Counted from the first letter of the stretch, positions 11,394-32,957 are shown. The stretch is 36,496 nucleotides of DNA from Candidatus Parvarchaeota archaeon (GCA_015522785.1 WALP01000011.1:1-36496); one strand, 5' to 3'. Notes: generated by a model not told the origin, from the letters alone. A program made the numbers and translations.

Positions 11394-11519
11394 GCGCCGG
11401 TAGTCTAGAAACCCTTTCTTAAAAGAAAGCGTTTACGGAAAGAACTGAGAAGGGGTGGGCAATGGTTAGGATAGGGCGTTGCCAACGCTCTGACCCGGGT
11501 TCAAATCCCGGCCGGCGCA
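11394..11519 (+). tRNA. tRNA-Gly(GCC) with an intron in the D-loop
   Basis: Acceptor stem GCGCCGG 11394-11400 pairs with CCGGCGC 11512-11518, and A11519 is the discriminator. D-stem GTCT 11403-11406 pairs with GGAT 11469-11472. Anticodon stem GGGCG 11474-11478 pairs with CGCTC 11486-11490, with anticodon GCC at 11481-11483. The T-arm is CCGGG/CCCGG around TTCAAAT. The gene is 126 bases long, and removing 54 bases (11409-11462) leaves a standard 72-base tRNA with D-loop AGTGGTTA. An intron between positions 15 and 16 is non-canonical; most archaeal tRNA introns sit at 37/38. The gene carries no CCA. Confidence 0.93.
11409..11462 (+). other. tRNA-Gly intron, D-loop position 15/16, 54 nt
   Basis: Cutting after AG 11407-11408 and after AA 11461-11462 restores a normal D-loop. 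Exon GTCT 11403-11406 pairs with intron GGGC 11457-11460 as the central helix. The inner helix can pair 11411-11420 with 11447-11456 over ten pairs including G-T. The 3' bulge is AAT; the 5' bulge is four bases (AGAA), so this is a relaxed bulge-helix-bulge. An alternative internal hairpin is CTTTCTT/AAGAAAG-like at 11414-11429. The body matches the tRNA-Arg anticodon intron over CCCTTTCTT, AAAGAAAGCG and CGGAAAGAA. Confidence 0.8.
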
Positions 11520-11579
11520 TTTTAGAAAACAATATTAAGATGAACAATGTTTAATGACTAATAAAAATGAGGTGTTATA

Positions 11580-11861
11580 ATGGTGGAAGTAACAGTCAGG
11601 GTTTGTGACATATGCAAAGAAAGGCTTGCAGTAGGAAAGTGTCCAATCTGTGGAAGAGATGTCTGCAAGCAGTGCACACAGGCGTTCAGCTTGGAGCTCG
11701 GAATGAAGTGGAGAGGTCCTTCTATTGAAGTCTTCAGGGAAAACATTTGCATTGATTGCGCCAAAAAACTTGAAGGAAAATCCAAAGATATAATAATGGA
11801 ATTAAGCAAAAAGTTACAACCTGAGATAAAAGAAATGCTTAAGGCATACGCCAAGGAATAA
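11580..11861 (+). CDS. Small eight-cysteine zinc-binding protein
   Basis: A 93-aa cytoplasmic protein with four CxxC pairs: C9/C12, C21/C24, C29/C32 and C57/C60. This arrangement should bind two zinc ions, in a B-box, LIM or RING-like cross-brace. The remainder is a helix (KSKDIIMELSKKLQPEIKEMLKAY). It starts at ATG 11580 behind GAGGTG at 11569-11574. It is followed after one base by a small membrane protein, so the pair is an operon between two tRNA genes. The family and function are unknown to me; a role in protein or nucleic-acid contacts is only a guess. Confidence 0.75.
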   Translation: MVEVTVRVCDICKERLAVGKCPICGRDVCKQCTQAFSLELGMKWRGPSIEVFRENICIDCAKKLEGKSKDIIMELSKKLQPEIKEMLKAYAKE

Positions 11862-11862
11862 A

Positions 11863-12141
11863 ATGTCAGCAAGTGAGTTTATTTATTATACTTTATTAAA
11901 ACATGGCAAAATAATCATAGCTATAGTTGGATTTATGATTGCAATCATTGTCTTTATGTACACCCAAAATTTCGGCATGAAAGTTGATGAAACAACACAA
12001 TATTCATTGGTACAATGCGACTACGATTCTGACTGCTTTGAACACTGCGGCGAGTGTGTATCAATAAAAGACTCAAGATTTTGTGAAGATAATGAATCAA
12101 TACACTGTGCCTGTATAAATAATACTTGTTCGGTATCGTAA
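11863..12141 (+). CDS. Small single-pass membrane protein with eight-Cys outer domain
   Basis: A 92-aa protein with one membrane helix at about 17-33 (IIIAIVGFMIAIIVFMY) and a short exported domain with eight cysteines (C52, C58, C62, C65, C74, C82, C84, C89) followed by the C-terminus. An even number of closely spaced Cys suggests a disulfide-knotted domain outside the cell, similar in pattern to the CxxxxxC...CxxxC modules common in archaeal surface proteins. The start at ATG 11863 is one base past the stop of the zinc protein, indicating coupling. No family is recognised. Confidence 0.7.
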   Translation: MSASEFIYYTLLKHGKIIIAIVGFMIAIIVFMYTQNFGMKVDETTQYSLVQCDYDSDCFEHCGECVSIKDSRFCEDNESIHCACINNTCSVS

Positions 12142-12189
12142 TCCTTTTAAAACAAATGTTTCTTTACTTTTTGTGGGCCCGTGGTCTAG

Positions 12190-12237
12190 CGCATCTTTCT
12201 TTGGGAAAGAAAGCTGCACCAAAGAAATTGCGGACAA
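12190..12237 (+). other. tRNA-Val intron 1, D-loop position 15/16, 48 nt
   Basis: Same insertion point and flanking exon bases as in tRNA-Gly (GTCTAG before, TGGTTA after). The central helix is exon GTCT 12184-12187 with intron GGAC 12232-12235; bulges are AG|C and AA|T, a good three-base pair of bulges. The inner helix is GCA 12191-12193 with TGC 12229-12231. It contains a perfect 8-bp hairpin CTTTCTTT 12195-12202 with AAAGAAAG 12206-12213. The 18 bases 12208-12225 are identical to the minus strand of 27321-27338. Confidence 0.82.
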
Positions 12238-12281
12238 TGGTTATGACGTCCGCCTTACACGCGGGAGGTCCCCAGTTCAAA

Positions 12282-12347
12282 TACACTTTCTCTCTTTGAA
12301 AGAGAGAACCTGTGCTAAGAGAGAATCTCTTGGCGAGTGTTTGAGAG
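12282..12347 (+). other. tRNA-Val intron 2, T-loop position 59/60, 66 nt
   Basis: Removal restores TTCAAAT. The T-stem is the outer helix, TTCA 12276-12279 with TGAG 12342-12345 the central helix, and ACACT 12283-12287 with AGTGT 12336-12340 the inner helix. Two hairpins follow: 12288-12296 with 12300-12308, and 12314-12322 with 12326-12334. One extra base (T12341) lies between the inner and central helices. The same fold, length and extra base occur in the T-loop intron of tRNA-Arg(CCU). Confidence 0.85.
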
Positions 12348-12414
12348 TCTGGGCGGGCCCATTCTAGTATTCTTTATAAAGTAGTAATTATTTTCTAAGT
12401 TGGGGTGCTATAAC

Positions 12415-14331
12415 TTGTCGGAAAAAAAATTAACAGAGATATATATCCACGCGTGCGAATGGAGCTCAATTAAATTTCCTCAGCTCGCGAATAGGGATAC
12501 AAAGGTTACAAATGAACTAAAAAAATCCCTAAAATTCTTAAAGTGGGGTATAGAACCCCACGAGGTTATAACCCTAAGCAGATTGGTTTTAATTGTAACT
12601 GCAGTTATAGCCATCCTTATAAATATAGTGTATCTCCTTAATTTCTCTCCTTCGATAATAATTCTATCAACAAACGCAGTAGTACCTTTCTTATTCGCAT
12701 ATCTTATAACAGAATATCCGAAAAACGAAGCCGCCCTCGAAAGAATTGATGCTATTGGAAGCGCCCCAACGGTGTTAACCCAAATTGTAATCTTCCTAAA
12801 GCAAAACCCCAACTTGGAAAGGGCTTTGCAGTTCGTGACAAAATACTCAGAAGGAAGAATCTCAAAAGAACTGAAAGAAGTGCTATGGAAATGTATGATG
12901 GGGCAAAAAACAAGCATAAAGGAAGCATTAATCTCACTGGCACAACAATGGGGGGAATACTTAGTTGACCTAAAAAGAAGTTTGTACTTGATTGTTGCAT
13001 CAGTATCTGAAAGAAATGAGGTAAAAAGAAATCAATCACTTGACAGAGCACTGAAAATCTCCCTCGATGGGTTAATTAACAAAATAAAAGAATATGCTAA
13101 TAATCTTTATTTGCCCACATTATTCCTTTTCAGTTTCGGCACAGTACTTCCATTGGTCATAATCTCACTTCTCCCAATATTTTCATTTTTAGGAGGAGAG
13201 TTTTCATCCCCTCTACAGATGTTTTTAATATTAACTGTTTCCATTGTTGTAATTTATTTTTACTCAAACAAGATAATTTCTAAGAGACCACCATCATTTG
13301 CGAGCATAAAATTGCCGAAAGATTTAAGCATTTACCCCAAAGCAAATCACTTGAAGATAAAAGTAGGTAAAAGAGATATTGAATTTCCGGCACTGCCATA
13401 CTTGATTCTAACCTTCCTTGTGATAGGCTTTCCGGGAATATTTTACTTATTAAGTGAAACATCTTTCGTAAAATTAATACCCAACACCTTCACAAACATA
13501 TTAAACAGTTTCAATACTCTTACCTTAATTTGGGCATTTGGAATTGTAATTGCAGTTTATTCCTATGGAACATCATGGTATAAAAAGGAAATCAGAAAAA
13601 AAATAAAACGCCTTGAAATTGAGGCAGTGGATGGATTCTACCAGTTGGCAAGCAGAATAGATGAGGGGCGCTCCCCTGAAGAAGCAATTAAATTTGTGGG
13701 GGAAAGCATGCCAAATACAGAATTTGGTAAGTTAATGAAAAAGACATACAATACACTCAGAAGCAGGCACACAACTCTTGAAAAAGCATTGTTTGACGAA
13801 GAGTATGGCACACTAAATAACGTGTACTCAAAAAATGTAAAACTCATGTTCAGGGTTTTCTTGACTTCTCTTAAGAAAGGAGTCAGCAATAGTGCCCAAA
13901 TGCTTTTCACAATTTCGAACCATTATGACCAACTTAACAGAACAGAAGAAAAGCTAAAATCCACCCTAAAGAACGCATTGTCAATGATGAGAACAACAGC
14001 AAGCATATTTGCTCCCATGATAACAGGATTAGTTATCACATTACAACAGCTAATACAAAATGGATTGAAAAGCGTAAATGAAGGATTAAATGGGATGGGG
14101 TATTTGAATCTGTCCTTTTTGACAACCCCAAATTTCAGCGTCGAAATACTGCAGTTAATTTCAGGCATATACATGATTTTACTAGCGTGGTTATTAATCA
14201 GATATGTGTCTTTATTGGAATATGGGAAAGATGAAGTTATGTTAAAAACAGAATTGGCACAAAATGTTCCAATTGCTCTTTTCATCTTCACACTGACATT
14301 GATAGGTAGTAGAATTGTATTGGGGGCATAA
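12415..14331 (+). CDS. TadC/FlaJ-like archaeal pilus platform protein
   Basis: A polytopic membrane protein (638 aa) of the type II secretion F / TadC / FlaJ family, the inner-membrane platform of archaeal type IV pili. Two T2SF-like repeats are seen: helical cytoplasmic parts around residues 115-225 and 395-530 (for example DGFYQLASRIDEGRSPEEA), each between pairs of membrane helices (about 57-75, 82-100, 231-258, 267-283, and further ones at the C-terminal end). I choose TTG 12415 because GGGGTG at 12403-12407 is at proper spacing; an in-frame TTG at 12400 would precede that site. A TATA-like TCTTTATAAAG at 12371-12381 lies upstream. It heads a cluster of pilin-like genes with no ATPase nearby. 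Confidence 0.88.
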   Translation: MSEKKLTEIYIHACEWSSIKFPQLANRDTKVTNELKKSLKFLKWGIEPHEVITLSRLVLIVTAVIAILINIVYLLNFSPSIIILSTNAVVPFLFAYLITEYPKNEAALERIDAIGSAPTVLTQIVIFLKQNPNLERALQFVTKYSEGRISKELKEVLWKCMMGQKTSIKEALISLAQQWGEYLVDLKRSLYLIVASVSERNEVKRNQSLDRALKISLDGLINKIKEYANNLYLPTLFLFSFGTVLPLVIISLLPIFSFLGGEFSSPLQMFLILTVSIVVIYFYSNKIISKRPPSFASIKLPKDLSIYPKANHLKIKVGKRDIEFPALPYLILTFLVIGFPGIFYLLSETSFVKLIPNTFTNILNSFNTLTLIWAFGIVIAVYSYGTSWYKKEIRKKIKRLEIEAVDGFYQLASRIDEGRSPEEAIKFVGESMPNTEFGKLMKKTYNTLRSRHTTLEKALFDEEYGTLNNVYSKNVKLMFRVFLTSLKKGVSNSAQMLFTISNHYDQLNRTEEKLKSTLKNALSMMRTTASIFAPMITGLVITLQQLIQNGLKSVNEGLNGMGYLNLSFLTTPNFSVEILQLISGIYMILLAWLLIRYVSLLEYGKDEVMLKTELAQNVPIALFIFTLTLIGSRIVLGA

Positions 14332-14363
14332 AAGTTTATAAGTCAAATATAATTTTAAAGAAT

Positions 14364-14371
14364 AAGGAGGT
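14364..14371 (+). promoter_or_regulatory. Strong Shine-Dalgarno site of the first pilin gene
   Basis: AAGGAGGT at 14364-14371 is the best ribosome-binding site in the window, seven bases before ATG 14378. A TATA-like AATTTTAAAG at 14351-14360 is too close to drive this leader, but GTTTATAAG near 14334-14342 could. Strong translation fits a major pilin. Confidence 0.6.
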
Positions 14372-14377
14372 TTTAAG

Positions 14378-14887
14378 ATGAGATTGAACAAAAGGGGTGT
14401 AGAAGCATTACCTTTAAGGTATATCATAATTGCCCTTGTGGCAGCACTTGTAATTGGTATAGCATTGCAGTTTACTGGAATTTTAAAAAGCGGAACGATA
14501 AACACAGCTACAAAGATAAATGACACTTTGGCACAAAAGACGACATGCGAGCTTGATGAGGAAGCACCTGTTATAAGCGACTGGAATGTTAATTGTAATG
14601 CAACAACAGATATTGTCAATATCACTTCAGTAAAGGTAACTGATGACTGCGGTGTTGAATGGGTAAAAGTAGAGTTGAAAAATTCGACAAATGACTTCAA
14701 CGGACTTGCGGATTTAAAGATAAAATCAACAGATGACAACACATGGGATGGGATATATAATTTCACAGATGCATCAAGTGTTACAAAAACATATGACATA
14801 CAATCAGGAGACATTGTTGTGATTTGGGCTAAAGACAAGGCAAATGCTGAAAATTACGCAGTTGAAGAAACAGTGACATGTCAATGA
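14378..14887 (+). CDS. Type IV pilin-like protein, candidate major pilin
   Basis: The N-terminus MRLNKRGVEALPLRYIIIAL is a class III (prepilin) signal: a short basic leader, cleavage expected after Gly7, then a hydrophobic helix (residues 8-33) that both anchors and packs the filament. The rest (169 aa in all) is an exported beta-rich domain with four cysteines and a DDCGVEWVKVEL segment typical of Ig-like folds. It has its own strong ribosome-binding site and a TATA-like box, unlike the overlapping genes after it, so it is probably the most expressed subunit. It follows the TadC-like gene by 46 bases. Confidence 0.75.
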   Translation: MRLNKRGVEALPLRYIIIALVAALVIGIALQFTGILKSGTINTATKINDTLAQKTTCELDEEAPVISDWNVNCNATTDIVNITSVKVTDDCGVEWVKVELKNSTNDFNGLADLKIKSTDDNTWDGIYNFTDASSVTKTYDIQSGDIVVIWAKDKANAENYAVEETVTCQ

Positions 14888-15330
14888 TGTCAAAAAAAGG
14901 TGTTGAATCCTTTCCGTTTTTTTTATTTTTGTCGCTTTTGATAGCGGCGTTCGTGCTCACAATAGGGTTTTATCAAGTAGATGCTTTTTCGGAATTCTCG
15001 CACAGGCGCGAGTTCACAAACAGTTATACAAATATGATAAACACTATTAAAAACATGCGGGCAACATCGGATGAGGGCTCATTCACAAGAGTCCACTTAA
15101 AAGTCCCGCAAGGATACAACATCACTTTTTTATCGGGCGATGATAGGGCATTAATACACGGACCAAACTTAAATCTAAACAACTCTCTTGGATTTAACAT
15201 TGTAAACTTGACAGACAAATATGGAAATTTCAAAGAAAACCTAACCCTAAAAAGTGGAGAATATCAAATTGTGATATACTATGGAAATCCAACTGGGGAA
15301 AATGAACCACTTGAAATTTTCTTCAAATAA
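14884..15330 (+). CDS. Pilin-like minor subunit
   Basis: Overlaps the preceding gene by ATGA, so it is translationally coupled; an earlier ATG at 14878 and a later one at 14887 are alternatives. The N-terminus is SKKGVESFPFFLFLSLLIAAF: a short basic leader, Gly cleavage site, then a hydrophobic helix, as in archaeal prepilins. The exported part is about 110 residues (VHLKVPQGYNITFLSGDDRA) ending in an apparent beta-sandwich edge. No specific subfamily is recognised. It is probably a minor or tip pilin. Confidence 0.72.
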   Translation: MMSKKGVESFPFFLFLSLLIAAFVLTIGFYQVDAFSEFSHRREFTNSYTNMINTIKNMRATSDEGSFTRVHLKVPQGYNITFLSGDDRALIHGPNLNLNNSLGFNIVNLTDKYGNFKENLTLKSGEYQIVIYYGNPTGENEPLEIFFK

Positions 15331-15712
15331 GAAGGGAGTAGTTAGTTTTGTATTCTCCAAATTTACATTAATCATATTTGCAATAATCGTCGCGTCTGCA
15401 TTGTTCTTTGTTTTGATAATCGAGAAAGACATCCAACAAACAGACAGCACGGCTAAAGAAGCGGAAGGGATTGCTAACGTAATAGATATGGTATCCGCAT
15501 CTGAATTTAATGTTTGGAAGATATATACAAGCGACAGTGAGTATACAATTTCTTTTGGAAATCACTCGCTTACACTTTATCATGATGGAAGACACATAAC
15601 GAAAGGACTGTTGTTTCCGATAAACGCGACTGCATCCGACAATGATATTTCTGTCAAATGTTTGAATGTGACAAAACATGACGGAGAAATGGTGATTAAA
15701 AAATGCCAGTAG
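15302..15712 (+). CDS. Pilin-like minor subunit
   Basis: The start is uncertain: ATG 15302 follows GGGG at 15295-15298 and gives a 12-residue leader MNHLKFSSNKKG before the hydrophobic helix VVSFVFSKFTLIIFAIIVAS; ATG 15281 would lengthen the leader by seven residues. Either way the gene overlaps its predecessor. KKGVVSF matches the prepilin cleavage pattern of the neighbouring genes. The exported domain is about 85 residues, with two cysteines near the end (CLNVTKHDGEMVIKKCQ) likely to form a disulfide. Confidence 0.7.
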   Translation: MNHLKFSSNKKGVVSFVFSKFTLIIFAIIVASALFFVLIIEKDIQQTDSTAKEAEGIANVIDMVSASEFNVWKIYTSDSEYTISFGNHSLTLYHDGRHITKGLLFPINATASDNDISVKCLNVTKHDGEMVIKKCQ

Positions 15713-16110
15713 GGGAAAATATTGCTGTTTTAATTCCTTTGTCAATAATTTTAACAGTGACACTGCTCTTTGTTTTCTCGTTATTCATACAGTTCTCAGA
15801 ACGGATGGATATAGTGAAGATGTCCCAAACCTCCCTTAATGTTGGAGAGTATGTGATAAATGATGAATTTCATTATAAAAACGGAATTGCGCTTCCGGAA
15901 AACCACTGGGGATGCGGAAAAATTTCGGAGCTGAACATAACTTCCAACTACAAAGTCAAGATAAATATAACTAATTTGGAAACTGGGAGGTGGTGGTGCT
16001 GGGGAAATGTTGACGGCGCCGATAAAGTCGTAGTAAATTCCTTACCCACATTAATAATCAAAGGAGAAAATGTTTCTCTTGCAAAGGTGAGTATAATTGT
16101 TGGAAAGTAA
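15703..16110 (+). CDS. Pilin-like or pilus accessory membrane protein
   Basis: Starts at ATG 15703, overlapping the previous stop by ten bases. It has one hydrophobic N-terminal helix (IAVLIPLSIILTVTLLFVFSLFI) but lacks the basic KKG leader; MPVGENI might be a minimal cleavage site after Gly4. The exported part contains WGCGKISELNITSNYKVKIN and a tryptophan-rich WWCWGNVDG segment. At 135 aa it matches the size of the other small subunits in this operon. The divergent leader leaves it uncertain whether it is processed by the prepilin peptidase. Confidence 0.68.
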   Translation: MPVGENIAVLIPLSIILTVTLLFVFSLFIQFSERMDIVKMSQTSLNVGEYVINDEFHYKNGIALPENHWGCGKISELNITSNYKVKINITNLETGRWWCWGNVDGADKVVVNSLPTLIIKGENVSLAKVSIIVGK

Positions 16111-16606
16111 AAAATCACAGGGAGTGCTAATTGACTTGATTTTGTTAGTCCTTATTGTAAGCATATTTGCGGTTTTCCTAAGCCAGCACCTAAACCAGCA
16201 ATCAATAAATACGGCGTCGCTCCGCTCTCAAAGTGCATTCACGCAAAAACTTTTGATTTCGACATTGGAGTACAAGCTAGAGGATAATACAACAATCGCA
16301 TCTTCAATTGAAATGAGTTACTGTGGTAAGGATATAAGCACGGAAGAAAACATCAAATCCACAATAACCGCTTTGAACAAACCAAATTATCATTACATTT
16401 TTATTGCTTATCCAAACGGCAAAACTGCGCACGCGACTGCCGTGTGCGATGATTATGTGTCACAGGAGTATGGTTGCTGTGTAAAGACGGACAAAGTTAA
16501 CATAGCCACAGTTAACTTGTCCCTGCCAAGCGGATGCAATTACAATTATATTTTAGTCACTCTGGGCGTCTGGCCGGACTCGATGGAGGTGGACAAGTGT
16601 GACTAA
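16097..16606 (+). CDS. Pilin-like minor subunit (TTG start)
   Basis: The frame opens with TTG 16097 (or TTG 16100), placed six bases after GGTGAG at 16086-16091, and overlaps the gene before it by 14 bases. The leader ESKKSQG precedes the hydrophobic helix VLIDLILLVLIVSIFAVFL. The exported domain (about 130 aa) has six cysteines, including an adjacent CC pair (YGCCVKTD), implying disulfide stabilisation. The organisation is the same as the other pilin-like genes. Confidence 0.7.
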   Translation: MLESKKSQGVLIDLILLVLIVSIFAVFLSQHLNQQSINTASLRSQSAFTQKLLISTLEYKLEDNTTIASSIEMSYCGKDISTEENIKSTITALNKPNYHYIFIAYPNGKTAHATAVCDDYVSQEYGCCVKTDKVNIATVNLSLPSGCNYNYILVTLGVWPDSMEVDKCD

Positions 16607-17033
16607 GAAAGGATTTATGGTAAGTCCAGTAGTGTTCATCGCATTGTTTTTCATAGCAATAGCATTTTCATATTACGCGTCAAGCATCGATAACAAAATG
16701 GCTTACAGTATCAAAGAGGTGTCTTCAATAGAAAAAGGAAATTTTGACATACAAAAAAAGCAGCTTGTTATGGAAACCTTTGCCGAGGCGGCGACATACA
16801 AGTGCTCGCAGGATTTTCCCTATCCCTGCAACAAAACGGATTTGGAAAACTGCGTTGAGGGTGATTTAAATTCTACATTCGGAGATTTCAACTGGGAGTT
16901 TAAACTATCCGGCGACGAAGTGATTAAAATTGAGCTTTATCTTCCGCAGATTAAGGCAACAAATATAAACATGACATCAGATATAATATACATTGAGAAA
17001 AGTGTAGATAAAAACTTCGTTAATTGGTGTTGA
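16599..17033 (+). CDS. Pilin-like minor subunit (GTG start)
   Basis: GTG 16599 lies behind GGAGGTGG (16585-16592) and overlaps the previous stop by eight bases. The N-terminus MTKKGFMVSPVVFIALFFIA has the KKG leader and a hydrophobic helix. The exported domain of about 115 residues contains four cysteines (CSQDFPYPC, C, and C-terminal WC). It is the last pilin-like gene; a 50-aa coiled-coil protein follows after two bases. Confidence 0.72.
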   Translation: MTKKGFMVSPVVFIALFFIAIAFSYYASSIDNKMAYSIKEVSSIEKGNFDIQKKQLVMETFAEAATYKCSQDFPYPCNKTDLENCVEGDLNSTFGDFNWEFKLSGDEVIKIELYLPQIKATNINMTSDIIYIEKSVDKNFVNWC

Positions 17034-17035
17034 AA

Positions 17036-17188
17036 ATGTTCGGGAAAGACAATGAAAAAATAAAAATGCTTGAAAAAATGGTTGGCGCGCTAAGCAGGAG
17101 CATCGACGACATAACGGCGGAAGTCAATGTCCTGAGAAACGAAGTCGAAGAGCTGAAAAAACAGCTCAGGAAGAAAAAGAAAAAATAA
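17036..17188 (+). CDS. Small 50-aa coiled-coil protein at the end of the pilus operon
   Basis: A short frame from ATG 17036 to TAA 17188 encodes a soluble protein: MFGKDNEKIKMLEKMVGALS, then a heptad-like helix (residues 20-44, SIDDITAEVNVLRNEVEELK) and a run of Lys. It begins two bases after the last pilin-like stop and ends exactly where the convergent nth stop begins. Codon use matches the neighbours and the heptads keep Leu, Ile and Val in a/d positions, which supports a real gene despite its size. It may be a cytoplasmic pilus accessory; the function is unknown. Confidence 0.65.
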   Translation: MFGKDNEKIKMLEKMVGALSRSIDDITAEVNVLRNEVEELKKQLRKKKKK

Positions 17189-17830
17189 TTAATTCTCTTT
17201 TTTGTAATAATCACACCATCTTCTTATCGGGCAAATTTCGCACTGCGGGTTTCTTGCCTTGCAGATGTTGCGCCCGTGAAGTACAAAAAGCTTGTTGAAG
17301 TTCAGCCAGTATTTTTTTGGAACAACCTTCAAAAGCGCCTGCTCCGTCTTTAACGGCGTCCTCTCGCTGACAATCCCTATTCTGTTGACCACGCGGAAAA
17401 CGTGAGTGTCCACCGCAATTCCTTCCGCCTTCTTGAAGCCGTGCGACAAGACGACATTCGCGGTTTTTCTGCCGACTCCCGGAAGTTTCACAAGTTCCTC
17501 TATAGAGTCGGGGACTTTCCCGTTGTATTTGTCCACAAGAATTTTTGAAAGCTTTTTTATGTTCCTCGCCTTTACTTTGTAGAAAACGCCCCTCTTCACG
17601 AGTTTTTCAAGTTCCCTTATTGGCGCCCTGGCGATTTCCGCGGGCGTCTTGTATTTTGAGAAAAGCAGCTTCGCGGCGGCAACGGCATTGTCGTCGGTGT
17701 TTCTTGCGGAAAGAATTGTCCTAATCAAAAGCTTGAACTTCGAAGGGTTTCCCCTGACAACTGGAGGCAGCTTGTATCCCATGTATTGTTTTTCCAAAGA
17801 TGAAATTATTTTGTCAATTGGCTTTCCCAC
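17189..17830 (-). CDS. nth: Endonuclease III (DNA glycosylase/AP lyase)
   Basis: Nth removes oxidised pyrimidines and cuts at the abasic site in base excision repair. The HhH motif LPGVGRKTANVV is at 116-127 with catalytic K122, and the catalytic Asp is D141 in VDTHVFRV. The C-terminal [4Fe-4S] ligands are C190, C197, C200 and C206, with the classical CX6CX2CX5C spacing. Length (213 aa) is standard. It faces a divergent endonuclease IV gene across only 37 bases, so initiating glycosylase and AP endonuclease are co-located. Confidence 0.96.
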   Translation of the reverse strand: MGKPIDKIISSLEKQYMGYKLPPVVRGNPSKFKLLIRTILSARNTDDNAVAAAKLLFSKYKTPAEIARAPIRELEKLVKRGVFYKVKARNIKKLSKILVDKYNGKVPDSIEELVKLPGVGRKTANVVLSHGFKKAEGIAVDTHVFRVVNRIGIVSERTPLKTEQALLKVVPKKYWLNFNKLFVLHGRNICKARNPQCEICPIRRWCDYYKKEN

Positions 17831-17867
17831 AGATAACTATTAAACAGAGTATTATTTAAAACTACTC
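17831..17867. promoter_or_regulatory. Compact divergent promoter between nth and nfo
   Basis: The 37-base gap holds ATTTAAAAC near 17851-17859 and CTATTAAAC at 17837-17845. The first is about 23-25 bases from the nth start on the minus strand, and the second about 26 bases from the nfo start on the plus strand, so the two promoters interleave. No ribosome-binding site is visible for either gene, so both mRNAs look leaderless. Confidence 0.45.
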
Positions 17868-19610: not shown

Positions 19611-19699
19611 ATATCATCACCCCGTTATCTGAAAAGAGCAATATTTTTAAATATATATTATTTACTCTTACTATCCTATTAAAAAGGGGGCGATTTTAA

Positions 19700-22499: not shown

Positions 22500-22542
22500 G
22501 GATTGTGTAAAGATTTAAAACAAATTAAAGCTTTTCATTTTC

Positions 22543-24677: not shown

Positions 24678-24776
24678 CCCATAATTAAAAAGAAGAGATG
24701 TAATATAAATTTTTGGACAAAGATTGACGTTTTATTTCCACATATTTTAAATAAAGAGTGTTGTGTTAATTTTAGC

Positions 24777-25526: not shown

Positions 25527-25545
25527 GATTTTATTATTTCTTTTT

Positions 25546-27030: not shown

Positions 27031-27122
27031 GTAATAAAAAACATATCCTCTGTATATATATTTTTCGTCACTTTCGAGGTATGCAAATCAACATTTATAA
27101 ATCAACTTCTACTTTCAATTTC

Positions 27123-27196
27123 GGGCCCGTAGTTTAGCTTGGATAGAACATAAGGTTGCGGACCTTATAACTCGGGTTCAAATCCCGACGGGCCCT
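27123..27196 (+). tRNA. tRNA-Arg(GCG), no intron
   Basis: Acceptor stem GGGCCCG 27123-27129 pairs with CGGGCCC 27189-27195, with discriminator T27196. D-stem GTTT 27132-27135 pairs with GAAC 27146-27149. Anticodon stem TAAGG 27151-27155 pairs with CCTTA 27163-27167, with anticodon GCG at 27158-27160. T-arm TCGGG/CCCGA encloses TTCAAAT. A20 follows the GG of the D-loop, as in arginine tRNAs. TATA box CATTTATAA at 27092-27100 lies 27 bases upstream. It is uninterrupted, but intron-like hairpin elements begin five bases after it. Confidence 0.95.
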
Positions 27197-27200
27197 TTCA

Positions 27201-27245
27201 ATCTTTTCTTTATGAAAGAAACATATACGGAAGAAAATGTTTTTC
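27201..27245 (+). repeat. Free-standing intron-like element E1 (type I)
   Basis: Directly behind tRNA-Arg(GCG). A hairpin TTCTTT/AAAGAA at 27206-27220 is followed by TATACGGAAGAAAATG, which resembles the body of the tRNA-Gly intron (TTTACGGAAAGAACTG) and of the tRNA-Arg anticodon intron (GGCGGAAAGAA). AACAT 27220-27224 can pair with ATGTT 27237-27241. It is in the same direction as the tRNA. It could be a former intron or a trailer structure. The match is partial. Confidence 0.45.
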
Positions 27246-27292
27246 TCTTGGTCCAGCTTCTCTTTTCTAAAGAAAAGGTGGTTCTTTTGCTA
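27246..27292 (-). repeat. Free-standing intron-like element E2 (type II, inverted)
   Basis: On the minus strand it reads ACCACCTTTTC, hairpin, GAAGCTGGACCAAGAG. The hairpin is CTTTTC 27262-27267 with GAAAAG 27272-27277. It has the same layout as E3 and E4: a CACC start, a pyrimidine/purine hairpin, then CTG-ACC-AAGAG. It lies head-to-tail with E3, so the two form a small tandem array. Confidence 0.55.
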
Positions 27293-27299
27293 AAGCTTT

Positions 27300-27366
27300 T
27301 CTTTCTAAGAGAAGGTTTTCTCTTTGGTGCAGCTTTCTCTTTTTAAGAGAAAGGTGCTACGAAAGA
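27300..27366 (-). repeat. Free-standing intron-like element E3 (type II, inverted)
   Basis: The minus strand begins AGCACCTTTCTCTT (27358 downward), identical over 14 bases to the start of the T-loop intron of tRNA-Arg(CCU) at 32769. After the hairpin AAGAGAAAG it continues CTGCACC then AAAGAGAAAAC, again matching that intron. The first hairpin is nine pairs, 27333-27341 with 27345-27353. The second is AAGAGAA 27307-27313 with TTCTCTT 27318-27324. Bases 27321-27338 equal the reverse complement of tRNA-Val intron 1 bases 12208-12225. The end abuts the TATA box of the next gene. Confidence 0.7.
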
Positions 27367-27396
27367 TTTATTAAAGGTGTTATTTTAATTAACTAC

Positions 27397-27684
27397 ATGG
27401 GTGCTAAAAAAGATCTTTATACTTTCTTCCTACGCAAGAAACCAGTTAAGATACTTGTTAGCTTAGCGAAGGACCATAAGCTTAGATATGCATCAGTTCT
27501 AGCCAAAGAGGTTGACTGCACATATTCTCACACAGTTAGAATCCTAAAAACAATGGAAGAACACAAACTTGTCGAGTTCGACAAAAAGGGAAGACTAAAA
27601 ACCCTTAAACTTACTCCTCTCGGCTCGGAGATAGCAGAACATCTCTCAAAGGCAATGAGATTGTTCAAAAAGGCAGAAAAATAA
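27397..27684 (+). CDS. Small winged-helix DNA-binding protein
   Basis: A 95-aa stand-alone winged helix. Helices at residues 13-24 and 29-38 lead into the recognition helix CTYSHTVRILKTMEEHKLV (residues 40-58), and the wing is EFDKKGRLKTLKLTPLG (59-75), as in MarR/ArsR-like archaeal regulators. There is no ligand domain. A TATA-like ATTTATTAAAG at 27366-27376 lies 27 bases before the ATG and overlaps the end of element E3. It ends exactly where the convergent second winged-helix gene ends, so two HTH proteins face each other. Confidence 0.85.
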   Translation: MGAKKDLYTFFLRKKPVKILVSLAKDHKLRYASVLAKEVDCTYSHTVRILKTMEEHKLVEFDKKGRLKTLKLTPLGSEIAEHLSKAMRLFKKAEK

Positions 27685-28122
27685 TCACAACTTGTCTATC
27701 TGGAAAGCATATTCTTTGATTCTCCCAAAAGTCGGCTCGACAATAAATTTCTTGATTTCATCAAGCAATTCGCTAAGTTTCATAAACTCCTTAATGCGGT
27801 ATTTTGTGCCAATTCTCTCAACAATGCCTATTTTCTCAATCCGCAGCAGCTGACGGCGTATGTTAGAAGATGCCACACCTTTACTTCGCAACTCCTTTGT
27901 TTTGCTTTCAATTTCCTTAGAAGTCAAAAATATCTTCTTCTTGCTCGCCTCTAGCAGCACACTAAATATATCAACAATCACATCTCTTGAATCTCCCGGC
28001 TGTAAGAGCCCTAGTGAAATACAAAGCTTCCTTACAAGCTCATTTTTATTCTCATTTGTCGGGCGCTCAAATTTTCTAAGAATAATCTCTGAAATTGGCA
28101 CATCCTTGAACACTTTACCCAT
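27685..28122 (-). CDS. Winged-helix domain protein, 145 aa
   Basis: I choose ATG 28122 (MGKVFKDVPISEIILRKFE) since upstream sequence in this frame is the antisense of the GalT-like gene. The N-terminal half is helical (residues 20-60, NELVRKLCISLGLLQPGDSR). A winged helix is at 55-112, with TSKEIESKTKELRSKGVASS and recognition helix NIRRQLLRIEKIGIVERIG followed by the wing KYRIKEF. The C-terminal helix carries FIVEPTFGRIKEYAFQIDKL. The protein is conserved-looking and unnamed; it probably regulates transcription. It is divergent to the GalT-like operon and may control it. Confidence 0.75.
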   Translation of the reverse strand: MGKVFKDVPISEIILRKFERPTNENKNELVRKLCISLGLLQPGDSRDVIVDIFSVLLEASKKKIFLTSKEIESKTKELRSKGVASSNIRRQLLRIEKIGIVERIGTKYRIKEFMKLSELLDEIKKFIVEPTFGRIKEYAFQIDKL

Positions 28123-28137
28123 AGAATATTTAAATGA

Positions 28138-28154
28138 GGGGTATTTTATAAACT
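28138..28154. promoter_or_regulatory. Shared divergent TATA region (winged-helix gene / GalT-like operon)
   Basis: The near-palindromic ATTTTATAAAC at 28143-28153 lies about 25 bases from ATG 28122 on the minus strand and about 19 bases from ATG 28166 on the plus strand. With a 43-base gap between starts, one box or two overlapping ones must serve both genes. A regulator bound here would affect both. Confidence 0.4.
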
Positions 28155-28165
28155 TTGGATAAACT

Positions 28166-29080
28166 ATGCAAAACGAACTTAGGAAATCATATGATATCAA
28201 AAATTGGTCATTAATATCTGAAATAGAGCCTTCTTCTGTAGGGTGTTCATTATGCCCAGGTTCTGAAGAGAAGACAGAGGAAACATTTAGAATTGAAGAC
28301 AACAAAGGAAGATGGATAGTAAGGAGTATAGTTGACCCATACCCATTTACCCATCCTTCAAAATTCAAGATAAGTGAAAGCGAGAAGTTATTCACTGCTA
28401 TCAAGGCGCATGGATGGAGTGAAGTGGTAATAGAAACACGCGACCACACAAGGGAATTCCACGAGCTTACATCTGAGGAAATAAAAAATGTACTCACAGT
28501 ATATAAAAACAGAGTAAACGCATTAAGAAAACGAGAAAATGTTGAGTTTATTGGAATATTAAAAGACAATATGAATATTGAGTTTGAACATTCATACTCA
28601 AAAATTTTTACTCTCCCTATTGTTCCAGAATCAATAAAAGAAAAAATAAACACATTTAATGATTACCAGTACAAAACAGAAAAATGTATCTATTGTGATA
28701 TCGCAAAAAAAGAAGAAAAAGGCCCGCGGCATATATTGAGCAATGACAGTTTTATTGCATTTGCACCATTTTCCCAAACAGAAAACTTTGAAGTATTGGT
28801 AGTACCAAAAAAGCATCACACATGCATAAACGAACTGAACGAATTTGAGATATTCAACCTCGCAGAAATTCTTAAAAACCTACTAACCCGATTGAAAGCA
28901 GCAATTAATCCATTTAAGTATGGAATTGTATTTTACTTGCGCCCAAATAAAGAAAAAGATTTTCACTTCCATATAAAGATATTCCAAAAAACATTTCACA
29001 GCACATTGGATGAAGGCTACGGAATTTATTTGAGCAAACTCTCTCCGGAAAGTGTGGCAAAAATTTTGAGGGGAAAATAA
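28166..29080 (+). CDS. GalT-like nucleotidyltransferase-fold protein, catalytic His replaced
   Basis: The fold is that of galactose-1-phosphate uridylyltransferase (HIT superfamily). The zinc pair C27/C30 (CSLC), WIVRSIVDPYPF at 50-61, GWSEVVIETRDH at 83-94, a second CxxC at 174-177 and the C-terminal HFHI at 267-270 all align with the family. At the active site the usual HPHxQ is HSYSK at 142-146: the nucleophilic second His is Tyr and the Gln is Lys. Uridylyl transfer by the classical route is therefore unlikely. It may be a phosphorylase, AMP-type hydrolase or binding protein. Two coiled-coil genes follow with no gap, so it probably works with them. Confidence 0.8.
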   Translation: MQNELRKSYDIKNWSLISEIEPSSVGCSLCPGSEEKTEETFRIEDNKGRWIVRSIVDPYPFTHPSKFKISESEKLFTAIKAHGWSEVVIETRDHTREFHELTSEEIKNVLTVYKNRVNALRKRENVEFIGILKDNMNIEFEHSYSKIFTLPIVPESIKEKINTFNDYQYKTEKCIYCDIAKKEEKGPRHILSNDSFIAFAPFSQTENFEVLVVPKKHHTCINELNEFEIFNLAEILKNLLTRLKAAINPFKYGIVFYLRPNKEKDFHFHIKIFQKTFHSTLDEGYGIYLSKLSPESVAKILRGK

Positions 29081-29749
29081 ATGGTATCTAAAAGTGACAC
29101 GGAAATAATCCTAAAGGAATTTCATGACATAAAAAAGAATATGCTTCCTTTGATGGAAGAGATAAAAAACCTGAAAAGAATAAAGACAGAACTTGAAAAA
29201 ACACGAAAAGAGCAGGATGTTAGAATTAGAAAATTAGAGATAGAACTAAGAAGCTCAAAGAAGAGAGAAAATTCCAAAGAGGTTATCGCACTAAAGAACG
29301 AAATTGAGAAGCTGTCAAGAGAATCAAAACTACTGGATAGAATTGTAAGTTCTAATAAAAATGTCATCTCCAAACTTCAAGATAATGATAAAAAAATAGC
29401 GGATGAAATAAACAAACACAAGAAAGTTATGAATATTATAAGAAAAGACATAAACAAATTGCCGAATATTGAGAAATCAGCAGATAAAGAGTATGAAAAA
29501 TTGGCAGATAAAATAAAAACAATTGAAAGCGGCATAAAAAATAACAGAGAGAGGATATCCAAGCTGGAAAGTAATGATGAAAAGATAATAAAGGAGATAA
29601 AGGAACATGTTTCCGCGATAACATCCTTAAAAGAGTCCATACAGCAACTTGAAAGTCACATCAAAAAAATTGAAGATAATCTAGAAAGAATAAATATAAA
29701 AGTAAATGATACCTCTAAATTAATTAGTGATATTGAGAAGGTGTTATAA
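29081..29749 (+). CDS. Long coiled-coil protein, 222 aa
   Basis: Begins at the base after the GalT-like stop and overlaps the next gene by one base (TAATG). Nearly the whole length is charged alpha-helix with heptads (for example IKNLKRIKTELEKTRKEQDV and RISKLESNDEKIIKEIKEHV). There is no signal, membrane segment or nucleotide-binding motif, so it is a cytoplasmic rod. Lys and Glu dominate. Archaeal proteins of this type act as scaffolds, or in archaella (FlaC/D-like) and chromosome organisation, but no specific similarity can be claimed from the sequence. Confidence 0.75.
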   Translation: MVSKSDTEIILKEFHDIKKNMLPLMEEIKNLKRIKTELEKTRKEQDVRIRKLEIELRSSKKRENSKEVIALKNEIEKLSRESKLLDRIVSSNKNVISKLQDNDKKIADEINKHKKVMNIIRKDINKLPNIEKSADKEYEKLADKIKTIESGIKNNRERISKLESNDEKIIKEIKEHVSAITSLKESIQQLESHIKKIEDNLERINIKVNDTSKLISDIEKVL

Positions 29750-30693
29750 TGGATTTGCCAAACAAACTCGCATCCCTTAAGGATAAACTGGATGATGTTG
29801 AAAACAGAGTAGGATTGCTCGAAAAGGAAATAAAAAAGACAGTTGACGTAATCTCCTCCTTAGGAGGTAAAGAGGTAGAAATAGAAAAACTTTCAAAAAG
29901 GATAGATGAAGAATCATCCACAAACAAAACAAAAATCAAAAATATAGAAGAAAAAGTAGAGGAAAAGTTAAACTCTATATTTAAGGATATAGAAAAAGTC
30001 GAAGAGTGGCTAAAGGAAAATGAAGAAAAGAAAGAAAAAGAATTGAATAAAAAGTTAAGTAAACTTGCCACAAAGGAAGAAGTCGAAGAAATCGCATCAA
30101 AGTTCTCTAAAATTGACAAATCTTTAAAAGAAAAAATAGAACATATCGACGCAGCGATAGAAAGAATCAAAAGAACGGACGAAAAGCTAAAAGAAACTGA
30201 CAAAAAATTGGCTGAGACTGACAAAAGACTAGCAAGTATAAAGGTATTACAGGAAAGCTTCGGAAAGTTAAAGATGGATATCGCAGCCACAGAAGGGGAG
30301 CTTGAAAGTAGGATTAATGAAATTACTAAAAAAATAGAAACTCTCCAACTGAGTGTTGGTAAATACCCTTCCCCCAAAGAGCTGGCAGACAGGGATTTAG
30401 AACTTGCGGAAAAGATACGCAACATAGAAAGCAGGCTCGGTCCAGATTTTGAGGTAGTTCTTGATGGATTCAAGAAGATAAAGCACACCTTCGCAAAAAA
30501 AGAAGACTTTGAAAATGCAATCGAAGAATTAAACGAAAGAATTTCATCAATGGAATCAAAAATCGAGGCGGAAGACAGCACAGCTGAAATAGCAGAACTC
30601 AAAAAGGACCTTGAGGTATTAAAACAGCAAGTCATAACAACGCAGGATGCAATTGTGGAATTAAATGCGTTTATACGCCAGAAGATGTCATAG
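29749..30693 (+). CDS. Long coiled-coil protein, 314 aa
   Basis: The second rod protein, translationally coupled to the first (ATG 29749 overlaps TAA 29747-29749). Residues 1-200 are continuous heptads (LASLKDKLDDVENRVGLLEK). A break with Pro residues (KYPSPKELADRDLELAEK) is at about 205-222, and a segment LGPDFEVVLDGFKKIKHTFA near 232-252 could be a small folded module before a final coiled-coil (255-314). The paired rods suggest a hetero-oligomeric filament or scaffold with the GalT-like protein. No family is recognised. Confidence 0.75.
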   Translation: MDLPNKLASLKDKLDDVENRVGLLEKEIKKTVDVISSLGGKEVEIEKLSKRIDEESSTNKTKIKNIEEKVEEKLNSIFKDIEKVEEWLKENEEKKEKELNKKLSKLATKEEVEEIASKFSKIDKSLKEKIEHIDAAIERIKRTDEKLKETDKKLAETDKRLASIKVLQESFGKLKMDIAATEGELESRINEITKKIETLQLSVGKYPSPKELADRDLELAEKIRNIESRLGPDFEVVLDGFKKIKHTFAKKEDFENAIEELNERISSMESKIEAEDSTAEIAELKKDLEVLKQQVITTQDAIVELNAFIRQKMS

Positions 30694-30730
30694 TAAATGA
30701 TATAAATTCTTCAACTTTTTATTGTTCATA

Positions 30731-32008
30731 ATGATAAGTGAAAAAGTCCCAATAAAAGATGCATTTAACCTAAAAGAGGTAGCATTAGCAGGATGGGTTG
30801 AGAATTATAGAGACTTAAAAAAAATAAAGTTTATAATTCTAAGAGACGGCAGCGGAACACTTCAGGTAACCCTCCCAAAATCAAAGGTTTCAGAAGAAGT
30901 ATTCTCCGTCGAGCCAAGCCAAGAGTCATACATTTATGTCAAGGGAACAATGGTGGATAATAAAGAGGCACGTGGCGGAAAAGAGCTTATCCCGTCCGAA
31001 ATAAAAATTTTGTCAGCCGCAGAATCTCCACTTCCAATAGACATATCCGGAAAGATAGAAACAGACTTAAGTAAGAGAATGGACTGGAGGTTCATAGACA
31101 TACGAAATCCAAAAACAAATTCAATTTTCAGGCTACAAAGTAAGATTATCAACATCCTATCAAGATTTTGCGAAAGAAATAATTTTGTGAGGATAAACAC
31201 ATCAAAACTTGTAGGAGTTCCAACCGAAGGAGGCACGGAGTATTTTGAAGTTAGTTATTTTGACAGGAAAGCATATCTGGCACAGTCGCCGCAGTTTTAC
31301 AAAGAACTTGCTCTAAGCGGCGGACTTGAAAAAGTTTATGAGATTGGAAATGTCTATAGGGCTGAGCTTCATCACACAGTCAGGCACTTATGTGAATATG
31401 ACTCATTTGATGTGGAGTGGATTACAGATTCGCTCAATGACTTGATGGATTTTGAGGAGAAAATGCTGAAAAACTTGTTCGAACAAATAAAGGACGAAAG
31501 CGCGATCAAAAAATTCAGCGTAAGTCTTGATTTCCCAAATGAGATTCCGAGAATAAAATTTGAAGACGCAAAGAAAATTGTCGAGGAGATGGGTGTCCAA
31601 ACTGAAGATGGCGACTTGACCCACGCAGGCGAAAAGGCACTTTGCGAGTGGGCTAAAAGAGAACACAACTCGGATTTTGTTTTCCTCACACATTTCCCGT
31701 TCAAGCACAAAGTATTCTATGCAAAAAAAGATGGAAAAGATTCTCTCTCATTTGACTTACTTTACAAAGGCATGGAAATAACCACAGGCGGACTGCGTGA
31801 GGAAAATTTTGAAAAACGAAAAGCACAGATGATTGAAAAGGGACTTAATCCCGATACATTTGACCACCTAAGGTTTTTTAAGTATGGTATACCACCACAC
31901 GGCGGATTTGCAATAGGAATTGAAAGACTGACAATGAACATCCTCAATTTAGAAAATATAAGAGAAGCGAGTTTGACGCCAAGAGACCCAGAACGGCTTA
32001 CTCCTTAA
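30731..32008 (+). CDS. aspS: Aspartyl-tRNA synthetase (class II, archaeal type)
   Basis: Charges tRNA with aspartate. An N-terminal OB-fold anticodon domain contains GWVENYRDLKKIKFIILRDG. The class II core carries VPTEGGTEYFEV, LAQSPQFYKE, motif 2 (VYRAELHHTVRHLCEYDSFD) and motif 3 (HGGFAIGIERL). The ATG at 30731 is preferred to TTG 30722 because a TATA-like ATATAAAT at 30700-30707 lies 25-30 bases upstream. Length about 425 aa. Whether it is discriminating (Asp only) or also charges tRNA-Asn cannot be told; no GatCAB or AsnRS is in the window. Its last 11 bases overlap the convergent gene. Confidence 0.93.
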   Translation: MISEKVPIKDAFNLKEVALAGWVENYRDLKKIKFIILRDGSGTLQVTLPKSKVSEEVFSVEPSQESYIYVKGTMVDNKEARGGKELIPSEIKILSAAESPLPIDISGKIETDLSKRMDWRFIDIRNPKTNSIFRLQSKIINILSRFCERNNFVRINTSKLVGVPTEGGTEYFEVSYFDRKAYLAQSPQFYKELALSGGLEKVYEIGNVYRAELHHTVRHLCEYDSFDVEWITDSLNDLMDFEEKMLKNLFEQIKDESAIKKFSVSLDFPNEIPRIKFEDAKKIVEEMGVQTEDGDLTHAGEKALCEWAKREHNSDFVFLTHFPFKHKVFYAKKDGKDSLSFDLLYKGMEITTGGLREENFEKRKAQMIEKGLNPDTFDHLRFFKYGIPPHGGFAIGIERLTMNILNLENIREASLTPRDPERLTP

Positions 32009-32600
32009 TGGTTCTCGCGTCCACAATCCAACATCCATCCTTATTGGCAATCACAGGATTCAAATCCATTTCTTTTATATCAAGTTTCGACACATCAACA
32101 AGAAGATTTACTAACTCTTTCAACGAAACACCTTCATCAGCCAAAAGCGGCTTTGATTTTATCTCGCCAATCATTTCCTTAGCATCTTTTTCACTTATTG
32201 GACAAACCCTGAAAACAGCGTCGTTTATTATCTCTGCAAGGCTTCCTCCGCTACCGAAAAGAATTACTCTTCCAAAGGTTTTATCCTGCTTCAAACCAAT
32301 AATTAACTCTACACCATTAATTTGTTTCTGGACAACAAGTCCGTCAAAAGAAATCCCTTTAGATTCTAATGCTGAAACCATCTTCTTACTCAGTGTCTTC
32401 AAATCAGTTACGTTATGAATATTTGTAAGCACCCCACCTACTTTCTTCTTGTGTATCTGAAGCGGAACTTTCAAGACAACTGGATATCCTATCTTGTTGG
32501 CCAAGTCTATTGCCTCGCTTACGGATTCCGCGAAGCCATAATCTGCTATTTTAAAACCTTTTTTTTCAAGAAATTCAAAGTTGTGAAGCAGTTCCCTCAT
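31998..32600 (-). CDS. ATP-grasp subunit like ADP-forming acyl-CoA synthetase beta
   Basis: Resembles the beta (ATP-grasp) subunit of ADP-forming acetyl-CoA synthetase, which makes ATP from acetyl-CoA plus ADP and phosphate. Motifs are GYPVVLKV, HKKKVGGV (usually HKSDVGGV), ELIIGLKQDKTFGRVILFGS, the catalytic GGSLAEIINDAVFR loop and LNPVIANKDG. The start is ATG 32600; the 32633 frame would extend into the promoter. A TATA-like ATTTTAAAA lies at 32621-32629. At 200 aa it is slightly shorter than typical (about 230), lacking part of the N-terminal end. No alpha subunit lies adjacent, so the partner must be elsewhere. Confidence 0.88.
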   Translation of the reverse strand: MRELLHNFEFLEKKGFKIADYGFAESVSEAIDLANKIGYPVVLKVPLQIHKKKVGGVLTNIHNVTDLKTLSKKMVSALESKGISFDGLVVQKQINGVELIIGLKQDKTFGRVILFGSGGSLAEIINDAVFRVCPISEKDAKEMIGEIKSKPLLADEGVSLKELVNLLVDVSKLDIKEMDLNPVIANKDGCWIVDARTIKE

Positions 32601-32620
32601 GCAAATAAATAAAATGTCAA

Positions 32621-32630
32621 ATTTTAAAAA
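32621..32630. promoter_or_regulatory. Bidirectional TATA between ATP-grasp gene and tRNA-Arg(CCU)
   Basis: ATTTTAAAAA is palindromic at its core. Its centre is about 26 bases from ATG 32600 (minus) and about 29 bases from the tRNA start at 32655 (plus), the right distance for both. One box may serve a protein gene and a tRNA. Confidence 0.5.
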
Positions 32631-32693
32631 CAATTGCCTTTTAGCATATCTTAAGGGCCCGTAGCTCAGATTGGATAGAGCACTTGCCTCCTA

Positions 32694-32746
32694 CAGCCCT
32701 TTCTTATAAAGAAAGCGCTGGCGGAAAGAAAAATCCGCATCGGGTA
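32694..32746 (+). other. tRNA-Arg(CCT) intron 1, position 37/38, 53 nt
   Basis: In the canonical position: the anticodon stem is the outer helix, 3' bulge TA|A. The central helix is weak (CTC with GGG including a G-T pair, then a mismatch). The body has hairpin CTTTCTT 32699-32705 with AAGAAAG 32709-32715, extended by CAGC 32694-32697 with GCTG 32717-32720, and a second hairpin GCGGA 32721-32725 with TCCGC 32734-32738. It shares CCCTTTCTT, AAAGAAAGCG and CGGAAAGAA with the tRNA-Gly D-loop intron. Confidence 0.83.
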
Positions 32747-32768
32747 AGCAAGGGGTCGTGGGTTCAAA

Positions 32769-32834
32769 AGCACCTTTCTCTTTTAAAAAAGAGAAACGTG
32801 CACGAAAGAGAAAACTTTCGTGGGTGCATGAGTG
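32769..32834 (+). other. tRNA-Arg(CCT) intron 2, T-loop position 59/60, 66 nt
   Basis: Exactly as long as the tRNA-Val T-loop intron and with the same fold. TTCA 32763-32766 pairs with TGAG 32829-32832 (central), and GCACC 32770-32774 with GGTGC 32823-32827 (inner). Hairpin 1 is 32775-32783 with 32788-32796, hairpin 2 is 32801-32808 with 32815-32822. One extra base (A32828) again lies between the inner and central helices. Bulges are AA|A and TG|T. Its first 14 bases match the minus strand of element E3. Confidence 0.86.
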
Positions 32835-32879
32835 TCCCACCGGGCCCTCTTATAATTTCTTCAATAACATCTAGAGTCA

Positions 32880-32945
32880 CCAATAAATTCTTTCTTTTGA
32901 TGCAGCTTTTCTTTCTTGAAAAGAAAGAAAAGGTGCTTCTATTGG
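32880..32945 (-). repeat. Free-standing intron-like element E4 (type II, inverted)
   Basis: On the minus strand it reads AGAAGCACCTTTTCTTTC, hairpin (CTTTTCTTTCTT / AAGAAAGAAAAG, 32906-32931 region), then CTGCATCAAAAGAAAG. The layout is the same as E3 (GCACC, hairpin, CTGCACCAAAG). A closing 6-bp stem CCAATA 32880-32885 / TATTGG 32940-32945 brackets it. It lies 31 bases after tRNA-Arg(CCT), as E1-E3 lie after the other tRNA-Arg, so both Arg tRNA genes carry these elements downstream. Confidence 0.6.
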
Positions 32946-32957
32946 ATTATCCAATAG
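32939..32957 (+). promoter_or_regulatory. 19-bp perfect palindrome upstream of the HTH surface protein gene
   Basis: CTATTGGAT and ATCCAATAG are exact inverted repeats around one T. The palindrome ends directly before the TATA-like TTTTTAAG at 32959-32966, in the BRE region, and 30 bases before ATG 32987. It could be an operator for the winged-helix gene downstream. As RNA it is an 8-bp hairpin followed by a short T run, so a terminator for the tRNA or E4 transcript is the alternative. Confidence 0.5.

Follow-up and report, generated by a model that had tools for sequence, protein, structure and literature searches.

The window analysed here, a 36,496-nt stretch of DNA from Candidatus Parvarchaeota archaeon (GCA_015522785.1, WALP01000011.1:1-36496), contains tRNA introns and free segments built on one short module, in which a pyrimidine arm (Y) and a purine arm (R) form a hairpin that is followed by a purine tail (R′) mirroring the purine arm. 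Our best overall explanation, to which we assign a probability of about 0.6, is that this three-tract module is the selected, triplex-type body of most tRNA introns in the genus, and that the introns are copied between tRNA genes. An earlier note, made from the sequence of the window alone, had described five introns in the tRNAs for Gly, Val and Arg(CCT), together with a related family common to tRNA introns and free copies. An intron-tolerant scan found all five introns, the family relationship was borne out, and the finding is real and larger than first claimed; the mirroring of the hairpin arm by the purine tail was absent from that note.

The genome set consisted of the source genome (G000) and two congeners (G001 and G002), all three joined from stretches, with about 1 kb of one G001 contig left out; the source genome assembled in this way comprises 578,669 bp at 36% GC and is 69% complete. 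Full Y-R-R′ modules number 77 in the source genome and 94 and 88 in the congeners, whereas third-order Markov shuffles contain 5-7, so that counts stand well above those of shuffled sequences, a check which the earlier note had proposed. Among perfect hairpins with 8-nt arms in the source genome, 55 are pyrimidine-first and 3 purine-first (shuffles, 1-3). The module is about 45 nt long, and its copies read in the same order: a stem strand S1 (3-4 nt), a mismatch, Y, a loop, R, the strand S1′, three nucleotides, and R′. The linker from R to R′ is fixed, at 8 nt in 136/259 and 6 nt in 86/259 modules, and in those with the 8-nt spacing the mismatch after S1 is C.C in 104/136 and T.C in 27/136. 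Two sets of words, called types I and II, had been described, and both are present in the window; however, they proved to be variants of one module, differing in S1 length, in the basal pair and in the trinucleotide before R′ (ACG or GCG in type I vs ACC in type II), and in a third variant the mismatch is 2x2 and GCT or ACT precedes R′.

R′ is the mirror image of R, i.e. the complement of Y in parallel orientation, and not a direct copy. With orientation set solely by downstream purine content, the longest match of R′ to mirrored R averaged 7.56 (mean arm, 8.3 nt) vs 5.93 ± 0.06 for permuted tails, the best of 500 reaching 6.10; the direct-copy score was 6.70 vs 5.75 for permuted tails. More than 25 different arms, some of them 11 nt long, obey the mirror rule, which holds in 40/41 cases for CTTTTCTT, 14/14 for CTTTTCTTT, 10/10 for TTTCTCTTTT and 7/7 for TTCTCTCTTT. 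Outside the genus, on arms that the search pattern left free, the mirror score was 7.28 vs 6.33 ± 0.14 (maximum 6.81), and the direct score of 6.56 lay below the permuted maximum of 6.72.

One might propose that Y has the tail as a second possible Watson-Crick partner, the intron toggling, as an RNA switch, between two hairpins. Mirror-symmetric arms do let the tail pair with Y and the loop, as in the minimum-free-energy fold of the Val D-loop intron, the direct-copy score slightly exceeds that of permuted tails, and S1 clearly has a second, distal partner (described below). Nevertheless, asymmetric CTTTTCTT tails are mirrors in 40/41 cases (without the basal nucleotide) vs direct copies in 10/41, and tails of TTTTTCTT, TTTCTTTT and CTTTTCTTTTT are all mirrors and none direct. 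We thus regard such a switch as very unlikely; for asymmetric arms, a tail acting as direct copy or Watson-Crick switch is ruled out by the mirror test.

As the tail is a mirror repeat, neither Watson-Crick pairing nor template switching could produce it. Its arrangement, Y-R-R′ with R′ mirroring R and tracts of 6-15 nt, is that of class II intrastrand triplexes; the ITxF definition, with both loops of 1-6 nt, does not cover it, the R-R′ spacing being 8 or 6 nt with the S1 helix between. The simplest reading of the three-tract covariation would be a fold-back triplex, i.e. a Y:R duplex plus R′ antiparallel to R, and the opposite strand of the module corresponds to the pyrimidine-motif form, one that RNA can adopt. 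Under our preferred explanation, a single strand would fold back into a three-stranded helix (R.R-Y type) whose foot is held by S1, and this compact fold would be what selection keeps. We found no earlier report of a three-tract triplex-type repeat for archaeal introns, and the covariation of all three tracts argues strongly, on comparative grounds, that a triplex-type fold of a short nucleic acid is under selection.

The window holds the following features (class A corresponds to type I and class B to type II).

11394..11518, + strand: tRNA-Gly(GCC) gene with one D-loop intron (intron-tolerant tRNA scan, direct reading).
11409..11444, + strand: class A module of the Gly D-loop intron; S1 AAAC, C.C mismatch, Y CTTTCTT, R AAGAAAG, S1′ GTTT, ACG, R′ GAAAGAA.
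12175..12360, + strand: tRNA-Val(TAC) gene with D-loop and T-loop introns (intron-tolerant scan).
12191..12227, + strand: class B module of the Val D-loop intron; GCA, T.C mismatch, CTTTCTTT/AAAGAAAG, TGC, ACC, tail AAAGAAA.
12283..12325, + strand: class C module of the Val T-loop intron; ACA, 2x2 mismatch, TTCTCTCTT/AAGAGAGAA, TGT, GCT, tail AAGAGAGAA, then a second hairpin.
27123..27195, + strand: tRNA-Arg(GCG) gene, intronless.
27203..27237, + strand: E1, a weak class A-like module in sense orientation, 9 nt past tRNA-Arg(GCG); hairpin and 6-nt mirror tail.
27241..27281, - strand: E2, a class B module with a changed (broken) Y arm (direct reading); R and R′ remain mirror images despite the altered Y.
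27282..27318, - strand: degenerate class B copy in the interval between E2 and E3 (direct reading); Y arm broken, R and R′ matching.
27317..27357, - strand: E3, an intact class B module; arm CTTTCTCTT, tail AAAGAGAA.
32655..32847, + strand: tRNA-Arg(CCT) gene with anticodon-loop and T-loop introns (intron-tolerant scan).
32694..32730, + strand: class A module of the Arg(CCT) anticodon-loop intron; CAGC, C.C mismatch, CTTTCTT/AAGAAAG, GCTG, GCG, tail GAAAGAA. The intron has an additional second hairpin, GCGGA..TCCGC.
32770..32814, + strand: module of the Arg(CCT) T-loop intron; GCAC, C.C mismatch, TTTCTCTTTT/AAAAGAGAAA, GTGC, ACG, tail AAAGAGAAAA. The distal GGTGC beside the 3′ splice site would be an alternative partner of S1.
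32888..32936, - strand: E4, a module with 12-nt arms, downstream of tRNA-Arg(CCT).

Of the four free segments that had been proposed, E2-E4 are clear (RNA fold z of -2.7, -5.4 and -4.6, respectively); E1 is weak, as it has no S1 stem and folds no better than shuffles (z -0.5). ARAGORN and Rfam at default cut-offs missed the Gly(GCC), Val(TAC) and Arg(CCT) genes altogether, because introns interrupt them, and an Rfam scan of the window at gathering and relaxed thresholds gave no family match outside tRNA.

tRNA genes in all three genomes were called by a custom intron-tolerant scan, which partly misses genes with other interruption points, so that counts of "free" modules include unannotated tRNA introns. 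It called 24, 27 and 22 tRNAs with 45, 51 and 41 introns in G000, G001 and G002, respectively, a few of these calls being doubtful; a few low-scoring ones with very long introns are false, and a score cut-off of 19 was applied in the comparison of intron sites. Just 2, 3 and 2 tRNAs are intronless, and 41/45, 43/51 and 31/41 introns contain the hairpin. A tRNA has at most three introns, which occupy the D, anticodon and T loops, and their removal restores the cloverleaf of otherwise complete tRNA genes. Orientation is nearly uniform: over the three genomes, 109 modules in tRNA introns run sense and 6 antisense, and nearly all of these 6 form the second arm of an inverted pair (91-117 nt) within one long intron. 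Among loci from pattern scans, tRNA-resident modules are sense in 54 cases (30 in congeners, 24 in other groups) and antisense in none, and modules in one 16S and two 23S genes are also sense. tRNA-Tyr of both congeners (G001 C6 25537, G002 C10 7035) has an ordinary 28-nt anticodon-loop intron without the module, as well as a module-bearing T-loop intron which differs between the two.

With splice sites inferred from sequence and thus approximate, S1 begins 1-3 nt past the 5′ splice site in most introns. Pairing of S1-C(C) with a distal strand beyond the tail exceeds that in permuted introns (D loop, 3.90 vs a maximum of 3.81; anticodon loop, 3.43 vs 3.26; T loop, 4.89 vs 4.56); for D- and anticodon-loop introns this is a statistical excess over the permuted control, measured at approximate splice sites. 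T-loop introns combine two pairings, of exon TTCAA with intron TTGAA and of S1 with the distal GGTGC, and this arrangement is a predicted bulge-helix-bulge (BHB). The 5′ strand S1-C(C) would thus have two partners, the near S1′ in the module fold or the distal GG-containing strand at the 3′ splice site; the latter pairing would give a BHB for a single alpha-type splicing endonuclease to cut, and it would explain the conserved mismatched C, which is paired there. Each congener has one gene for a 176-aa alpha-type splicing endonuclease (EndA) which aligns over its full length to M. jannaschii 1A79; none was found in the source genome, whose assembly is incomplete (69%). By position and anatomy the introns appear to be of BHB type, and their body is a module that resembles class II intrastrand triplexes.

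Introns turn over, and within the genomes they spread, as the earlier note had supposed. Orthologues were defined as syntenic reciprocal best hits (median protein identity, 71-77%). The 26 shared tRNAs have 60 occupied sites, of which 22 are polymorphic, so that introns are not uniformly shared between sister genomes. Arg-GCG is intronless in the source genome and G001, whereas its G002 orthologue has a module-bearing T-loop intron; at syntenic loci in G000, G001 and G002, Pro-CGG has anticodon and T-loop introns, an anticodon-loop intron and none, and Pro-TGG an anticodon-loop intron, none and a D-loop intron. The T-loop intron of Arg-CCT shows three different arm types across the three genomes. 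Furthermore, 23/41 T-loop introns reach an identity of 90% or more with the T-loop intron of a different tRNA in the same genome, some being fully identical (Gly-TCC, Glu-CTC and Asp-GTC share an identical 66-nt intron). Such identity is apparently a trace of recent copying or conversion, mostly between equivalent loops, and the route would be recombination or conversion, or reverse splicing with reverse transcription.

It could be assumed instead that these are old, vertically inherited introns with ordinary hairpins, whose similarity is convergent and due to low complexity, with no third strand. The 38/60 occupied sites shared by all congeners with that tRNA fit this assumption, as does the A/G-rich composition. 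However, shuffles and permuted tails score far lower than the real modules, identical T-loop introns occur in different tRNAs, and one orthologous site may hold different classes, so that this explanation seems extremely improbable.

The free copies, which had been thought to be donors or decay products, mostly do not behave as the latter. All three genomes have E4, antisense, downstream of their tRNA-Arg(CCT) gene, where its arms measure 12, 10 and 10 nt and its tails are matched; it adjoins a perfect palindrome, CTATTGGATTATCCAATAG (32939-32957), which is kept in both congeners and followed by a TATA-like stretch and the next open reading frame (ORF). In free-copy comparisons with both flanking genes orthologous, a same-orientation module was present in 62/136, an upper bound, as unannotated tRNAs lie in some of the intervals and a single partner may enter the count more than once; 56 of these had a different but matched arm. 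Many copies thus persist at orthologous sites with arms co-changed. Intergenic copies also cluster within 25 nt of protein-gene 3′ ends (24/112 vs 3.4 expected; 16 sense, 8 antisense), and four intronless tRNA genes are followed, at a distance of 8-12 nt, by a sense copy. Because of orthologous persistence and 3′-end clustering, free copies look kept and not decaying; judged by such patterns, they would mostly not be debris. Those at gene 3′ ends would probably act in 3′-end formation or protection, which is a guess.

The suggestion that one intron lineage is spreading here was too narrow, as the module also occurs in other archaeal groups and inside 16S and 23S rRNA. One exact class A sequence, scanned against 84,980 genomes, matched 58 stretches, all but one labelled archaea: Aenigmatarchaeota, the two congeners, Altiarchaeota, Methanophagales (ANME-1), Methanosarcinales, Micrarchaeota, Diapherotrites and Burarchaeum; no Thermoproteota record was among the exact pattern matches in these genomes. 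The remaining stretch is labelled Pseudomonadota, yet its 16S, 23S and RNase P RNA genes are archaeal and its 23S gene contains the module, and it is likely mis-binned. A phylum scan with one exact class B pattern found 6/279 genomes, which is an undercount as one exact arm was used; the distribution appears patchy. Methanophagales and Methanosarcinales records contain 9-41 exact class B copies each (0 in the reversed-pattern control), free and often in tail-to-tail pairs with a spacing of 32-36 nt. In the genus studied here, similar pairs with 33-34 nt between hairpins lie at G000 C30 24824 and C26 5111 and at G002 C10 7395, C14 3816, C16 19494 and C11 1757, several of them in 91-92-nt T-loop introns of different tRNAs. 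In archaeon Yes46-13 (1-420 of the matched stretch), two class A modules, each in a unit of about 150 bp, are enclosed by CRISPR-like repeats GTTTCAATCCTTGTTTTAGTGGATTAGCCT and look like insertions into an array. Viral contigs searched with two patterns gave 0 matches, and no viral carrier was seen.

Several points speak against our explanation. Purine-motif triplexes are reported to form in DNA, not RNA (Holder et al. 2015, PMC4666352, from earlier work), and an RNA-level R.R-Y helix is doubtful for this reason. Standard folding pairs some tails elsewhere (Gly and Val D-loop introns). G.U pairs are nearly absent from S1 (0/264 in introns), which is unusual for an RNA-selected stem; as a test of which strand folds, G.U vs A.C in S1 gave too few of either. 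Finally, alpha4 enzymes usually go with canonical introns (PMC4090602), and most intron sites here are non-canonical. It is only tentatively, and with considerable doubt, that we suggest a purine-motif (R.R-Y) RNA triple helix as the conserved core of mobile archaeal introns in tRNA, 16S and 23S across several phyla, reused at mRNA and tRNA 3′ ends.

An alternative would be a DNA-level mobile element, similar to BoxC/PIT or to miniature inverted-repeat transposable elements, which takes up a class II triplex fold as single-stranded DNA and is merely tolerated where a transcript can be spliced or ends. Its Y-R-R′ tract order equals that of BoxC/TM_ECO (PMC4666352), and the dispersed free class B copies of Methanophagales and Methanosarcinales and the lack of G.U preference in S1 are in its favor. 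The tail-to-tail pairs and the copies between CRISPR-like repeats favor DNA-level movement; the sense orientation of stand-alone intron modules favors an RNA-dependent filter or route, and in tRNA and rRNA genes that orientation is nearly strict. Moreover, copies vary in arms and S1 instead of being near-identical, orthologous sites are conserved with three-way co-change, and no target duplication or transposase was identified. Tail-to-tail inverted pairs do occur, with single copies forming the majority. We consider such an element rather unlikely.

Among the known systems closest to the selected, triplex-type intron body which we prefer are BoxC/PIT/TM_ECO of Proteobacteria, intrastrand triplex repeats of the class II purine motif (Holder et al. 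2015, PMC4666352). Like the archaeal module, BoxC/PIT have Y-R-R′ on one strand with R′ mirroring R, many dispersed copies, a patchy occurrence between relatives and no known function. BoxC tracts are C/G-rich and 9 nt long with a second loop of 3 nt (PMC4666352), whereas those of the archaeal module are U/A-rich and variable in length; unlike BoxC, it has a 3-4 bp S1 stem between R and R′ and copies in archaeal tRNA and rRNA introns. The main text of Holder et al. does not mention tRNA or introns (PMC4666352). The transposed tRNA introns of Thermoproteales (Fujishima et al. 2010, as cited in PMC4090602) resemble those of our genus in near-identical introns at several positions in different tRNAs and in turnover between relatives; our genus is of another lineage, has an alpha4-like instead of alpha2-beta2 endonuclease, and shows a shared three-tract core. 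In Caldiarchaeum, too, tRNA intron sites are filled in some and empty in others among close relatives (Sugahara et al. 2012, PMC3293823), but the disruption there was ascribed to an element of 1.8 kb that carries a recombinase gene (PMC3293823), whereas short non-coding modules are found here. The module links archaeal introns to dispersed ANME-1 repeats and to bacterial BoxC, itself so far without explanation. It has long been asked how introns enter archaeal tRNA genes, and with a recognisable, countable core, clean filled and empty sites and near-identical introns, intron gain can be dated and tested.

Two minor observations concern one ANME-1 record (G281). A class B module is present there in four tandem copies with 43-nt spacing (C93, 15886-16044). 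A module at about 1473-1560 of another stretch (L268) is in frame with the first part of a long ORF, MKTNLSLEKKALPKKQKAMIGIATAF..., and may be translated or be an mRNA intron.

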